DNA of 33,759 nucleotides, taken from assembly GCA_025358765.1 (NCBI GenBank), contig JANYIG010000212.1, positions 1 to 33,759 of the forward strand, in the 5' to 3' direction. Shown in pieces: positions 5,428 to 26,600 of the stretch. The translations under genes and the position numbers were made by a program. The DNA comes from Candidatus Kapaibacterium sp. GTDB taxonomy: Bacteria > Bacteroidota > Ignavibacteria > Kapaibacteriales > UBA4661. Below the pieces are notes generated by a model. The model saw only the letters and a list, made by a program, of their open reading frames with translations, ran no database searches and was not told the DNA's origin. The first letter of the stretch is position 1. Each line of letters starts with the position of its first letter.

Positions 5428-5439
5428 CGCAACAAAAAA

Positions 5440-5461
5440 CCAATGACCAATGACCAATGAC
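5440..5461. repeat. Heptad tandem repeat, three perfect CCAATGA units
   Basis: Three perfect tandem copies of CCAATGA, followed by one C, lie in the 144-base gap between the FAH gene start and the methyltransferase stop. Short inverted sequences AGACGG (5412-5417) and CCGTCT (5469-5474) flank the cluster. This is the least degenerate copy of the heptad family in the window and gives the clearest view of its unit. Confidence 0.85.
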
Positions 5462-5474
5462 AAATTTTCCGTCT

Positions 5475-15155: not shown

Positions 15156-18100
15156 ATGAAAGTAATGATGGCACAGCACATTTTTAAGGTATGTATTTTT
15201 CTTTTTGCTGCCTTTGCCACACCGCTTATAGCACAGCAACATATATGGCAAAAGGCAATGAGTTTTCGTCACGTTTCTGTTGAGCAAGGGCTTTCGCAGA
15301 GTACTGTGTATGCCTCACTCCAAGACAAACGCGGTTTTATGTGGTTTGGTACGGCAGATGGATTGAATAAATATGACGGCTACACGTTTACTATTTATCG
15401 TAACCACCAGTCGAACCCACATTCACTTTCGAATAATTTCGTGCAAGCACTTCACGAAGACAAAGCTGGTACGTTGTGGGTCGGCACACGCGACGGCGGT
15501 TTGAACCGCTTTGAGCGTGCAACGGGTACGTTTACCGCGTACAAATACGACCCCACGAATGCAGCCAGCCTCAGCAATAATTACGTTTCCTCTATTTGCG
15601 AGGATTCATCTGGAACGTTGTGGGTTGGAACTGAAGGCGGCGGTGTCAATAAATTTGATCAACAAACAGGCTTGTTTACTGCCTACAAACACGACGCAAC
15701 AAATCCGCAAAGCCTCAGTCACAATGTTGTTTTTGCCGTCCGTCAAACACGTGACGGAATGCTGTGGATAGGCACACAAGGCGGTCTTGACTGCTTTAAT
15801 CCTCGCACGAGAGCATTCCAGCATTTTCGTCGTAATAATAGCGCTACACGTGTTCCAAGTCTTGCCGGCGACACTGTTCGCGTTCTGTTCGAGGACAGCA
15901 AAGGTATTCTCTGGGCTGGAACCGAAGGAAGCGGTTTGTCCGCATTTAACCCCAAAACACAGACGTGGACGACGTACCGCAATGAGTTGAAAAACCCTAC
16001 GAGCCTTGGCAATAATTGGATTCGCGTTATTTACGAAGATGTTAATGGGGTACTCTGGGTAGGAACGCTTGGCGGCGGGCTGCATACCTTCAATCGTAGC
16101 GATGATGACCCAGCTCGTGGAGCGTTTACGCGCATCGTGAACAACCCCAATAATCCTCGCAGCATTGGTGGTGATGCCGTGTATTCGATTGTTCAAGACC
16201 GCTCCGGTGTGTTGTGGGTAGGAACATACGGCACGGGATTGAGTACGTTCCACCGCAACAGCAATGCGTTCACCACATACTCTCATGACCCATCGAATCC
16301 GCAAAGCCTGAATACAAACGGCATCTCAGCTCTTTGCGAGGACAGGCGGGGTGCGGTCTGGGTTGGAACATGGACGGGTGGCTTGAACAGGCTCGACCGT
16401 GTGGCAAACGATGGGCAGGGAGCATTCTCCAGACCAAAATTATCCTTGAGTGGAACGTTCATCCGTGCTATCCTCGAAGACCGTGCGGGCAAGCTCTGGA
16501 TAGGTTCGTTGGGCGGTGTGGATGTGATTGACCCTGTTCGCATGAAAATTCACCAATCCTTCAAACACGACCTGCAAAACCAGAACAGCCTTACAAGCAA
16601 TGACGTTTTTACGCTGTTCGAGGACAGCAAGGGGCGAATCTGGATTGGCACACTCGGCGGTGGATTGGATATGTATATTCCTGAAAGCGGTATATTCACT
16701 CACTTTCAGAATCACCTCGCCGACACGACCAGCATCGGGAACAATATTATTCGTTCTATTTGTGAAGACAAACGAGGCAATATTTGGATAGGAACACGTG
16801 GTGGCGGGTTGAATCGCTACAACGAGCGCACAGGAACGTTCACACGGTTTTTTCACGACGAAAAAAATCCTCGGAGCATCGGCAATAATGCGATGTTTGC
16901 GCTCTATGTTGCGCGAGACAGTGCCTTGTGGATAGGCACACAAGGTGGTGGTTTATGTAGGTTTGATGCGGCTACGGAGACGTTCACCACATTCCGCGAG
17001 GAGGATGGATTGCCTAATAATGTCGTCTATGGTATTACGGAAGATAACACGGGGAATCTTTGGTTGAGTACGAATAAAGGTTTGGCGAAGATGGGGGCTT
17101 ATAGTCATTTGCCATCGGTCAGTAATCAAGCGGTTACGGACGCACATTCTTCCCCAATGACCAATCCACCAATGACTAATGACCAATCCACCAATGACCA
17201 ACGTATTTTTCGCACCTACGACGTTCGGGATGGCTTGCAATCAAATGAATTTAATGGCGGTGCGTACCACAGTGGGCGCTCTGGACGCTTGTATTTTGGG
17301 GGTGTGCAAGGCTTTAATGAGTTTTTCCCCGACAGCATTCGTGATAATATGTACGTCCCACCTGTAGTGATAACGTCGTTCAAAAAATTTAACCGCAATG
17401 TGATATTTGACAAAGATATTTCAGAGCTGGGTACGATTGAGCTTACGTACAAAGACGATTATTTTTCGTTTGAGTTTGCGGCGTTGAATTATTTGTTGCC
17501 AGAGGAGAATGAGTATCAATACATGCTGGAAGGCTTCGATAAAGACTGGGTAAACGCCGGAACCAAGCGCGAAGCTGCGTACACAAGCATTGACGGCGGC
17601 ACGTACACGTTTCGTGTTCGCGCCAGCAACAACGACGACGTCTGGAACGAAACGGGTGTTTCCATGCGTGTAGTGATTAATCCGCCATTTTGGGAAACAA
17701 TGTGGTTCCGCGTGATAGCTGTTGCATTCATTGTGACGTTGATTGCTTTATTGTACCACCTCCGCACCAAAGCCATACGCGAAATTAACCGTCGGCTCGA
17801 ATTGCAAGTCACCGAGCGCACAACGGAGATTCGTGACCGCAACAATCAGCTTCAGGGCGCAAACGAGGAGATTCAGCGTCAGTTGGAGCTTTTGGACGAG
17901 CAAACGCGCATGATTGAGTTAAGCAATACCGAGCTTCAAGAGAAGAATTTGGAAGTCGAAATAGAGCGCCAGAAATCGGAGGAGCTTTTGCTGAATGTAT
18001 TGCCCGTAACGATTGCAAATCGCTTAAAAGCTGGCGAACAGACAATTGCGGATTGTTTCGAGGAAGTGACGGTGCTGTTTGCGGACATTGTGGGGTTCAC

Positions 18101-18674
18101 ACAGCTTTCGGCGCAGCAAGAGCCGGTGGAAGTGGTCAATCTCTTGAACCGTGTTTTTTCAGCATTTGACATATTTTCAGAGCAATATCACCTCGAAAAA
18201 ATCAAGACCATCGGCGACGCGTACATGATTGTCGGCGGCATCCCCGAAGCCCGCGAAGACCACTGCGAGGCGGTTGCGCTGATGGCGCTCGAAATGCTCG
18301 AAACAATTGACATTATTGGTAAAACGCTAAAACTGAGGTCTCCATTAGCAGTACGGATAGGTATTCACACTGGTAGAGTGATAGCGGGCGTTATTGGGCA
18401 AAAGAAGTTCAGCTATGACCTTTGGGGCGACACCGTGAACACCGCAAGCCGGATGGAATCGCACGGCGAGGCGGGAAAGATACACGTGTCGGAGGAGGTG
18501 TACCGAAGATTGTCATCGGTCAGTGGTCATTTGTCATTGGGCATTGGTGCTACCGATGAACATCCACCAATGACGACTGACCAATCAACCAATGGCTTCC
18601 ATTTCGAGGAACGCGGCGAAATTGAGATTAAGGGCAAAGGTTTGATGCGGACGTGGTTCTTGGTGGGAAGATGA
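15156..18674 (+). CDS. Propeller-sensor transmembrane adenylate cyclase (class III)
   Basis: This 1172-residue receptor cyclase predicts cAMP synthesis in the cytoplasm in response to an envelope signal. A signal peptide (1-26, LIA-QQ) is followed by about 13-14 two-component-regulator propeller repeats (36-640, recurring GTLWVGT.GGGLN). A Y_Y_Y domain follows (about 785-845, YQYMLEGFDKDWVNAG), then one membrane helix (about 850-868), a coiled-coil linker (870-965) and a class III cyclase domain (968-1170). Metal Asp977 and Asp1021, adenine-selecting Lys1017 and Asp1088, and transition-state Asn1095 and Arg1099 are all present. This indicates an active homodimeric adenylate rather than guanylate cyclase. 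Residues about 650-683 and 1120-1147 are in-frame inserts made of heptad repeats. Usually this sensor is joined to a histidine kinase. Stop lies 23 bases from a convergent thioesterase gene. Confidence 0.94.
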   Translation: MKVMMAQHIFKVCIFLFAAFATPLIAQQHIWQKAMSFRHVSVEQGLSQSTVYASLQDKRGFMWFGTADGLNKYDGYTFTIYRNHQSNPHSLSNNFVQALHEDKAGTLWVGTRDGGLNRFERATGTFTAYKYDPTNAASLSNNYVSSICEDSSGTLWVGTEGGGVNKFDQQTGLFTAYKHDATNPQSLSHNVVFAVRQTRDGMLWIGTQGGLDCFNPRTRAFQHFRRNNSATRVPSLAGDTVRVLFEDSKGILWAGTEGSGLSAFNPKTQTWTTYRNELKNPTSLGNNWIRVIYEDVNGVLWVGTLGGGLHTFNRSDDDPARGAFTRIVNNPNNPRSIGGDAVYSIVQDRSGVLWVGTYGTGLSTFHRNSNAFTTYSHDPSNPQSLNTNGISALCEDRRGAVWVGTWTGGLNRLDRVANDGQGAFSRPKLSLSGTFIRAILEDRAGKLWIGSLGGVDVIDPVRMKIHQSFKHDLQNQNSLTSNDVFTLFEDSKGRIWIGTLGGGLDMYIPESGIFTHFQNHLADTTSIGNNIIRSICEDKRGNIWIGTRGGGLNRYNERTGTFTRFFHDEKNPRSIGNNAMFALYVARDSALWIGTQGGGLCRFDAATETFTTFREEDGLPNNVVYGITEDNTGNLWLSTNKGLAKMGAYSHLPSVSNQAVTDAHSSPMTNPPMTNDQSTNDQRIFRTYDVRDGLQSNEFNGGAYHSGRSGRLYFGGVQGFNEFFPDSIRDNMYVPPVVITSFKKFNRNVIFDKDISELGTIELTYKDDYFSFEFAALNYLLPEENEYQYMLEGFDKDWVNAGTKREAAYTSIDGGTYTFRVRASNNDDVWNETGVSMRVVINPPFWETMWFRVIAVAFIVTLIALLYHLRTKAIREINRRLELQVTERTTEIRDRNNQLQGANEEIQRQLELLDEQTRMIELSNTELQEKNLEVEIERQKSEELLLNVLPVTIANRLKAGEQTIADCFEEVTVLFADIVGFTQLSAQQEPVEVVNLLNRVFSAFDIFSEQYHLEKIKTIGDAYMIVGGIPEAREDHCEAVALMALEMLETIDIIGKTLKLRSPLAVRIGIHTGRVIAGVIGQKKFSYDLWGDTVNTASRMESHGEAGKIHVSEEVYRRLSSVSGHLSLGIGATDEHPPMTTDQSTNGFHFEERGEIEIKGKGLMRTWFLVGR
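17105..17203. repeat. Heptad inverted-repeat insert A inside the cyclase gene
   Basis: The left arm has TCATTTG, CCATCGG, TCAGTAA and TCA (17105-17128). After a 25-base spacer comes the right arm of CCAATGA-type units: CCAATGA, CCAATCC, A, CCAATGA, CTAATGA, CCAATCC, A, CCAATGA (17154-17197) and a partial unit. It encodes Pro/Met/Thr/Asn-rich sequence (PMTNPPMTNDQSTNDQ) between the last propeller blades, where related proteins have a short linker. The frame is preserved. Confidence 0.85.
18513..18595. repeat. Heptad inverted-repeat insert B inside the cyclase gene
   Basis: Five consecutive heptads TCATCGG, TCAGTGG, TCATTTG, TCATTGG and GCATTGG (18513-18547) face CCAATGA, CGACTGA, CCAATCA and CCAATGG (18567-18595) across a 19-base spacer. 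The segment encodes a loop between YRRLS and the final FHFEERGEIEIKGKG strand pair of the cyclase domain, which are usually separated by only a few residues. The frame is kept. Confidence 0.87.
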
Positions 18675-23675: not shown

Positions 23676-26600
23676 ATGAAACGAGCATTTAACCGTGCTT
23701 TGAGGATTATGGTAGCACTGAACGTTGTTATGTTGGCAACGTTCGTACAATCACTCGCGCAGACAGCATCAAAGCCTGAACTCATCGTCCAGACGGGGCA
23801 TTTCGGAGATATTGTTAGAGTCCAGTATAGCCCGAACGGGCAACTCGTGGTGAGCGGCAGCGAGGATAATACCGTCAAAATCTGGGATGCCGCCACTGGT
23901 ATGGTCGTCCGCACGTTGGTTGGGCATAAAGGTTATATCACCTCGCTTGACATGAACGCGGCGGGTGATATGCTTGTGAGTGCGAGCAAGGACAATTCGA
24001 TTCGCTTATGGGATTTGAAAACGGGTAAGGAAATTCGCCAACTGCCCGCACACTCGTTTTATGCGTCATCGGTGATGTTTAGCCCATCAAACAATATTAT
24101 CGCCAGTTGCAGTATTGATAAAACCGTCAAACTTTGGGACATCCGCATCGGCAAGGAAATTCCCATTCCCATTAAACACGATAAAGCCGTGAACTCGCTC
24201 GCCTTCAGCCCTGATGGGCTAACGCTTATCACCGGCAGCGACGACAAAACCGTAAAAGTGCTGAATATACCTACGAATACGCTAAAAGTTCTTACCGATG
24301 CTCAAGCGGAGGTGTTGTCGGTTGCCTACGCTGCTGATGGCTCTGTGTTTGCAGCGCAATGTGCGGACAATACTGTCATCATCTGGGATGCAGCCAAAGG
24401 CACGGTTCTTCGCAAGGTGCAAGGCTGGGGCAAACAGATTGCTATCAGCCCGAATGGGCGTTTTTTGGCATCCATAGGTGATGACGAACAAGCAATCATC
24501 CTCTGGAATGTACTTAACGGTAAGCGCCAACGCATGATGCAGGGCAACAACCCTCGTACGCTGTCACTTGGGTTTTCGCCCGACGGGAACAAGCTCTTGA
24601 GCGGTGGCGGTGACCGTTTGGTGCGGATGTGGGATGTTTCGACGGGTCGGGAAACCAAAAATTTATCTGGCTATACGAAGGTGATTAAATCTGTTGCGTT
24701 TAATAAGCAAGGAAGTGTGTTGGCAAGCGCTTTGTCGGACAAAGAGGGCAATAATATTCGCGTGTGGGATATTGCAGGTGGTAAAGACCCTGGAACGTTG
24801 ATTGCTCCTCTTATTCAAGTCGAGAGCATTGCCTATACGCAAGACGGCGCAACAATAGCCGCTGGTGGAACAGCGCTCGACAACAAGAGTATTGCGCTTT
24901 GGAGTACCCAAACTGGCAAACTCATCAAACTTCTGCAAGCCGATGAAAACAGTATTCGTGCCATAGCATTTTCGCCAGACGGTAAGTTGCTTGCATCTGC
25001 AACGACTGATTCGGCGTTGCAAATCTGGGATGTGGCAAAAGGCGAAGTTGTAAAGAAATTTAGCGGACATAAAAAGACGATTAACGGCGTTCGTTTTTCG
25101 CCAGATGGTGCAAAGGTTGCAACAGCATCAAGCGACAAAACAGCTCGAATCTGGGATGTGGCAAGCGGCAAAGAATTAAAAACTCTCGGCGGGCATAGTG
25201 AATGGGTAAATACAGTTTCGTTTAGCCCAGACGGTAAGACGCTTCTGACGGGTAGTGCTGACCGAACGGTAAAGCTCTGGAACTCCGAATCCGGCGCACT
25301 GGTGAGAACGTTGGAAGGACATAAAGGCGAGGTGCTGTGCGCTTCGTTTTCGCCGGACGGCACCAAGATTGCTTCGGGTGCAACGGACGACAACGTGAAA
25401 CTTTGGAATACTGCTGATGGCAAGGAAGTACGGACGTTTAAGGGACACGCAAACTGGGTGACAACGCTTTCATTCCACCCCGATGGCAAGACGCTTGCCA
25501 GTGCGAGTGCGGATGCGAAGGTGATTTTGTGGGATTTAGGTAAAGGTGCAGAAGTGGCGACACTTGTGGGCATTGGCAATGACGATTGGGCAGTGGTCAC
25601 GCCGGACGGTCAATTTGACGGCTCCGAGGACGGTACGAAACTGCTGCACTGGGTTGTGGATGCACAGCCCGTTCAGTTAGATGCGTTTTTTGAGCGGTAT
25701 TATTCGCCGAAATTGATTACGCGCATTTTCCCGACTTCCGCAGGAGCATTAGCGTTGAAGGCAAAAGCTGATGCTGAGGACAAAGCCCGCAAAGTCCGCG
25801 AAGACAATGCAAAACGCGAAGCGGTTGAACGCGAGAAAAAAGAACAAGAATTGATTGCCCTGCAAATCAAGCAGGAAGCCGAAGCGAAGATGAAAGCCGA
25901 AGCGGATGCGAAGGCAAGATTGGCGCTTGAGGCGAAGATGAAAGCCGAGGCAGATGCGAAGGCAAAACAAGCGTTACAAGAGCAATTGGCAAAAGCGGAA
26001 GCCGAAACCAAAGCTCGGAAAGAAGCCGAAGCGAAGGCGAAAGCTGATCTTGCAAAGAAGGAAGCAGAACTTGCCGCACAAGCTGTCGCCGCAGCGAAAG
26101 AAGCTGAAGTCGTGCCGGGTATAGCCGCAATTCGTCCCCCAGACATTGCTAAAGACCTGAAATTGCCGCCAGTTGTCGAAGTTCTTTCGCCTCGAAGTGG
26201 CGATACGGCAACGGCATCAAACGGTCGCCTGAATTTTACGTTTGGTGTGAAGGACAGAGGTGGTGCGATTAACGAAATCCGCATCTACCAAAACGGTAAA
26301 CTGCTATTTCCCGAAGAGTTCAAAAATATTCCGTCCGCACCTGGCTACACGATGCTGAGGGATTACAGTTTGCAGCTATTACCGGGCAAAAACGAGTTTA
26401 AAGTCATCGCGTTCAACAACGATCGCACAGAATCGAATCCGGCGGAGGTTTCGGTATTCTATAATGCTCCACCACTGCCGACTACGATGTATATTTTGGC
26501 AATCGGTGTGAACAAATATGTCAACAAAGAATACACGCTGCGCTTTGCCCGTCCTGATGCGGAAGCCTTAGTAAAAAAATTGGAAGAAGGCAGTAAAAAA

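Follow-up and report, generated by a model that had tools for sequence, protein, structure and literature searches.

Coding palindromes have been described mainly in obligate intracellular bacteria. Rickettsia palindromic elements (RPEs; Ogata et al. 2000, 2002) are units of ~150 bp that lie in frame in unrelated genes, as outlined in one source (PMC10969869); another (PMC2996958) mentions coding palindromes of a similar kind in Wolbachia and Methanocaldococcus. The latter also deals with PARCEL, a palindromic DNA in coding sequence that is spread among distant bacteria and gives rise to tandem domains of 25 aa that show a conserved amphipathic pattern and have their own genes. A different kind of repeat is represented by the TAACTGA heptamers of Beggiatoaceae, Cyanobacteria and Bacteroidetes (MacGregor 2015, PMC4679880). 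Of 169 sets of these heptamers, 24 touch reading frames, mostly at gene ends (PMC4679880). REPs and REPINs (PMC3116915, PMC3733652) are short palindromes in many copies, defined as extragenic and associated with a Y1 (RAYT) transposase.

The element described here, in which TCATTGG heptads face CCAATGA heptads, shares some features with each of these systems. A literature search for the exact heptad returned a single match, an unrelated human genetics paper.

The Cyclase Gene and Its Two Elements

The window, i.e., the whole stretch of DNA that was analyzed, comprises 33,759 nucleotides of Candidatus Kapaibacterium sp. Its genome (G000) is a 4.86-Mb draft in 362 contigs that is 98% complete. 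The features relevant to this report are as follows.

5439 to 5465, forward strand: a lone right-type arm of three perfect CCAATGA units, located between two genes that converge end to end
15156 to 18674, forward strand: host gene, an open reading frame of 1172 aa with a Reg_prop beta-propeller (Pfam PF07494, seven stretches), a Y_Y_Y domain (PF07495) and a class III adenylate/guanylate cyclase (PF00211; cyclase domain at 18057–18671)
17104 to 17121, forward strand: element 1, left arm (TCATTGG-type), degenerate, with a wraparound repeat score of 21; homologous to the clear left arm of the C18 paralogue
17122 to 17153, forward strand: element 1, loop between the arms, the 3′ part of which (GACGCACATTCTTCC) is shared with the C18 paralogue (GATGCACATTCTTCC)
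17154 to 17201, forward strand: element 1, right arm (CCAATGA-type), encoding MTNPPMTNDQSTNDQ, with a score of 65 against a shuffled maximum of 26
18512 to 18548, forward strand: element 2, left arm, within the cyclase domain, with a score of 54; RNA fold of the whole element z −4.14
18552 to 18594, forward strand: element 2, right arm, with a score of 38; the site is empty in other cyclases, solved mammalian adenylate cyclases included

The original prediction placed a heptad inverted-repeat element in this gene, and the right arm of element 1 bears it out. Chance levels were set with a wraparound repeat aligner run on 60 first-order Markov shuffles of the window (~2 Mb), and the score of this arm lies far beyond the highest of them. 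The arm reads CCAATGA, CCAATCCA, CCAATGA, CTAATGA, CCAATCCA, CCAATGA and CCAA, i.e., five 7-base steps (the partial last unit counted) and two 8-base units at 17161–17168 and 17183–17190. Extra bases had been predicted at 17168 and 17190 and are found at exactly those positions, and the 1172-aa frame is open through the element, as had also been predicted. The proposal that two clusters face each other holds for the right arm, but the left arm is weak and the hairpin has decayed. Taken alone, the left-arm score is near chance, with about one such match per shuffled window, and the RNA fold of element 1 is no better than that of shuffles (z −0.88). The left arm is believable mainly because the C18 paralogue has a clear left arm, with a score of 52, at the matching place. 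Element 1 is probably an old copy, by now decayed in part, of a palindromic repeat that is dispersed and made of TCATTGG heptads facing CCAATGA heptads.

Element 2, which did not figure in the original prediction, is a better-preserved palindrome than element 1. It forms an insert of ~26 aa between EEVYRRL and FHFEERGEIEIKGKG in the cyclase domain. Mammalian adenylate cyclase 8 has four residues at this position in the solved structures compared, and most other cyclases of G000 and of a sister-genus genome (G003, below) have about two. Elsewhere in the window, at 25875–25961, there is a 24-base tandem repeat in a 1250-aa reading frame, the translation of which resembles WD40 repeats and, at its C-terminus, a caspase.

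The Linker at Site 1

The linker that carries element 1 is 38 aa long in the window gene and 43 aa in a paralogue that ends C-terminally in a histidine kinase (on contig C18). Four other paralogues and the solved homologue 4a2l have only 6 aa at this place, and two homologues have 9 aa. The insert is missing from distant homologues, in agreement with what the original prediction anticipated. In the four nearest orthologues the linker is 23 aa long and heptad-free; part of the site 1 linker is therefore older than, or unrelated to, the repeat. The ~34 added codons that had been proposed are too high a figure: the linker is much longer than in the homologues with 6–9 aa, but the net gain over the nearest orthologues is only ~15 aa.

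The loop GAYGCACATTCTTCC has just two exact matches in the genome, in the window gene and in C18, and the idea that it might be a family-wide mobile signature was dropped. Since these two genes share both arms and the loop, the element there is of common origin, by descent or by exchange. The tree places them beside the orthologue clade, and their sisterhood gives a p-AU of 0.051.

Copies in the Genome and in a Sister Genus

Many other heptad clusters, both within and between genes, were found by the genome-wide search that the prediction had proposed as a check. In G000 there are 128 matches to a 21-mer of three CCAATGA units with up to three mismatches, and none to the reversed control. Among the matches listed, the first 54 sites were each read as a stretch, and the same was done for 33 sites of a sister-genus genome (G003, which is Candidatus Kapaibacterium sp. 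Prado071, all 3300 bases compared being identical). Wherever two arms are adjacent, TCATTGG precedes CCAATGA (22 of 22 pairs among the matches listed in G000, 14 of 14 in G003), an order that was not selected for, because the sites were found by a single-arm query. Elements in G000 are ~50–190 bp long and consist of variable tandem heptads with a spacing of mostly 7 bases and unit numbers that differ between copies; long 15-base arrays are present in G003. Several copies fold better than shuffles, e.g., the one in DnaE (RNA fold z −8.2).

A frame of at least 200 aa spans 29 of the 54 sites in G000 (among the matches listed) and 20 of the 33 in G003, and at least 40 codons lie on both sides of the element at 14 sites in G000 (among the matches listed) and 11 in G003. 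Coding status was assigned from the open frame, plus homology for the named hosts. In G000 these include DnaE (aa 822–847), Mfd, RecG, CysS, PurH, IspE, IcmF, an AddA-like helicase (twice), a DsbD-like protein, eight class III cyclases, a penicillin amidase, a histidine kinase and several proteins that end in a secretion-sorting tail. Hosts in G003 include MutS (L260, identical to L132) and, as judged by eye, proteins resembling LeuRS and KdpB as well as six histidine kinases that have the element at one site. In tandem gene copies with a secretion-sorting tail (L105 and L100 of G000, L261 of G003), a heptad-like WSLVVRHWSLV occurs at one conserved place near the gene end.

Reading Frame and Stop Codons

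All three frames are open through TCATTGG units, and TGA is met in all three through CCAATGA units, three perfect units in a row being enough to close every frame on the latter strand. In coding copies, a stop-free frame is preserved by units that are substituted or 8 bases long (CCAATCCA, CCAATCA, CCAATGC). Single-arm coding sites lie on the stop-free strand in a ratio of 16:2 in G000 (among the matches listed) and 8:2 in G003, both ratios being inflated by paralogues that share inserts. The frames that coding elements leave unused are open in 8 of 70 cases in G000 (among the matches listed) and in 2 of 60 in G003. These biases of strand and frame fit a filtering by stop codons.

A role of the 8-base units as a coding-only adaptation was considered and rejected, for the non-coding copies of G000 and G003 contain them just as often; in other phyla they amount to 2%. 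Being common in coding and non-coding copies alike and rare elsewhere, they are a trait of the lineage that happens to permit stop-free frames. The single extra bases that were thought to balance the frame of the cyclase gene are present, but non-coding copies in the genome have such 8-base units at about the same frequency.

Repeated Gain in Cyclase Paralogues

An insert at one shared codon position, that of element 2, is found in 8 of the 18 cyclases of G000 and in one cyclase of G003 (L308), and the nearest G003 orthologues of the insert-bearing cyclases mostly lack it. Trees were built without the insert, from 29 and from 39 sequences, and the insert trait requires eight changes. A single ancestral insertion, which would unite the carriers in one clade, was rejected (p-AU 6.9e-5 with 29 sequences, 7.7e-43 with 39). 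For instance, the nearest relative of the window cyclase domain (L288 of G003; support 88/75) has no insert, nor do the sisters of L113 and L126 (both 100/99) or that of L297 (99/99). The insert has, in other words, been gained repeatedly at one position.

The inserts of L111 and L113 are 90% identical, with 45 bases matching exactly, including the non-heptad loop. The two genes themselves are 51% identical further upstream and 69% nearer the insert. As the simplest reading of this comparison, the insert may have been copied between paralogues by short-tract recombination. Some of the nine cyclase inserts have unrelated loops. An alternative is independent entry at a single tolerant turn, and both routes may occur.

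Empty Sites and Other Lineages

The insert in DnaE falls exactly between two blocks aligned with Thermus DnaE. In distant members of the order both the DnaE and the Mfd site are empty, and same-family relatives have other sequences of varied length there. For example, DnaE (L203) and Mfd (L215) of genome G002 carry an in-frame CCCTCTCCC...GGGAGAGGG palindrome at the loops where G000 has heptad elements. Tolerant sites accept other repeats as well.

The exact two-armed pattern was found in 37 stretches across bacterial genomes. They belong to Cyanobacteria, Bacteroidota, Planctomycetota, Gemmatimonadota, Chloroflexota, Verrucomicrobiota, Campylobacterota and others, and include isolates such as Fibrella aquatilis and Desmonostoc muscorum. 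In other phyla (Prado071 left out), a frame of at least 200 aa spans none of 41 elements. Among 294 genomes sampled across the class, G000 alone had the exact pattern with a short loop; the two-armed form is thus uncommon even in near relatives. Two genomes of the same order (G043 and G048) have many matches to the reversed control pattern, and in G043 tandem heptads of CCAGTGA and CCGATGA are abundant.

Short sequences such as TACTCG/CGAGTA, which flank heptad elements in Gemmatimonadota (L145, L161, L164, L165), resemble an outer inverted repeat. Carriage by viruses was considered and rejected, the viral contigs being without a facing element and two contigs of one sample having the outward-facing order. 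At L304–L306 (IMG/VR, sample 3300017987), CCAATGA is followed by TCATTGG, an order opposite to that of all other elements examined.

Origin and Spread of the Element

Most probably, a dispersed palindromic repeat colonizes tolerant protein loops in the manner of RPEs and is copied between paralogues by local recombination. Copies lie both between and inside genes, and an intragenic copy would persist only with an open frame and a tolerated loop. Within gene families, other paralogues would take up copies at the same codon position; the likeliest route is short-tract recombination through flanking homology, with gene conversion as the putative process of paralogue-to-paralogue copying. The number of units would then be altered by slippage. 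A mobile or expandable palindromic repeat in coding DNA, tolerated in a loop, had been proposed from element 1, and the family, its coding copies and the empty sites support it; mobility in the sense of transposition is presumed.

It is unlikely, though worth weighing, that the copies arose by REP- or MITE-like transposition through a transposase supplied in trans, with selection keeping those at tolerant coding sites. REPs and MITEs are known in bacteria (PMC3733652, PMC10969869), and such a process would account for many dispersed palindromic copies and for the sharp GTCATTGG...CCAATGAC ends that elements show in several phyla. Nevertheless, no Y1 transposase (PF01797) was matched in G000 despite >100 heptad matches, an absence that is not absolute in a genome 98% complete. 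Likewise, no reverse transcriptase (PF00078) was found in G000, and no transposase or target-site duplication was identified. Untargeted transposition is also not expected to give repeated gain at one codon of paralogues.

Independent slippage, by which arrays arise anew at each site from short seeds and nothing moves, is somewhat less likely again. Heptanucleotide repeats are reported (PMC4679880) to outnumber other long simple repeats in many genomes, polymerase slippage being the proposed cause, and both the differing unit numbers and the 15-base arrays of G003 are in keeping with it. Slippage alone, however, does not produce facing arms, and the same unit and facing order recur at unrelated sites (36 of 36 pairs among the matches listed) and in many phyla. 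Paralogues, moreover, share a non-heptad loop along with the arms, as in the 45 identical bases noted above.

That the palindrome is kept as an RNA or DNA hairpin, for translation pausing, regulation or protein binding, seems distinctly improbable. A translational role was proposed for another heptad in Beggiatoaceae (MacGregor 2015, PMC4679880), and several copies, the one in DnaE and element 2 among them, do beat their shuffles. Element 1, however, does not, the hosts are functionally unrelated, and the two arms of an element show no particular match. A maintained hairpin was rejected on this last count: complementarity between the arms of one element does not exceed that with the arms of other elements (p = 0.999 in G000, p = 0.84 in G003), and the hairpin is therefore probably not maintained in coding copies.

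Finally, the suggestion that the site 1 linker is merely a variable receptor hinge with an incidental heptad look, for which the heptad-free 23-aa linker of the nearest orthologues speaks through its ...TDA..SP residues resembling the loop between the arms, can hardly be entertained against the score of the right arm, the arms and loop shared with C18, the presence of element 2 further on in this gene, the recurrence of these heptads in unrelated genes and the genome-wide family.

Relationship to Described Repeats and Significance

The dispersed palindromic repeat favored here shares with RPEs, as described in PMC10969869, its dispersal in one genome (128 matches to the 21-mer; 22 of 22 facing pairs among the matches listed) and its in-frame presence in unrelated housekeeping genes (here DnaE, Mfd, RecG, CysS, PurH, IspE and others), where it is tolerated in non-structured parts of proteins. 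In contrast to the ~150-bp units of that account, it is made of variable tandem heptads spanning ~50–190 bp, with a unit not divisible by three, the two being compared by their descriptions. It also differs from RPEs in being intergenic in many other phyla, in recurring at one codon position across paralogues, and in having a host of the Kapaibacteria family, which as far as is known is not an obligate intracellular lineage. The parallel with Rickettsia that had been suggested therefore fits by effect, but not by sequence family.

Heptamer repeats and the cyanobacterial STRRs are likewise 7-base direct repeats beyond chance, scattered across phyla, with stops in all forward frames. Here, however, the unit is CCAATGA and not TAACTGA, and facing arms form a palindrome. 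Such repeats are mainly intergenic, unlike the present one in this family, which is coding at 29 of 54 sites (among the matches listed) and 20 of 33, internal positions of essential genes included, against 0 of 41 elsewhere. PARCEL differs in its domains and its own genes from the short inserts in unrelated host proteins seen here. REPs and REPINs differ in that no Y1 transposase was found here and about half of the examined copies (among the matches listed) are intragenic. The element is RPE-like in effect, a likeness that stops short of membership in the RPEs given the differences in sequence, size and unit structure, and in structure it belongs with heptamer repeats such as TAACTGA.

One may tentatively go further and suggest, as a possibility of less than even standing, that the heptad palindrome repeatedly enters the same codon position of paralogues via homology-guided copying, and that a non-coding repeat has been a source of in-frame inserts across the proteome of one family, its replication and repair proteins included. 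The findings bear on the question whether new protein segments generally derive from small repeats. A single simple repeat can be traced here, non-coding in many phyla and in frame within dozens of genes of one family, and its 7-base unit makes the constraints of frame and stop codons readable directly from the sequence. The repeated gain at one cyclase codon, in turn, makes the spread of such inserts testable across strains.
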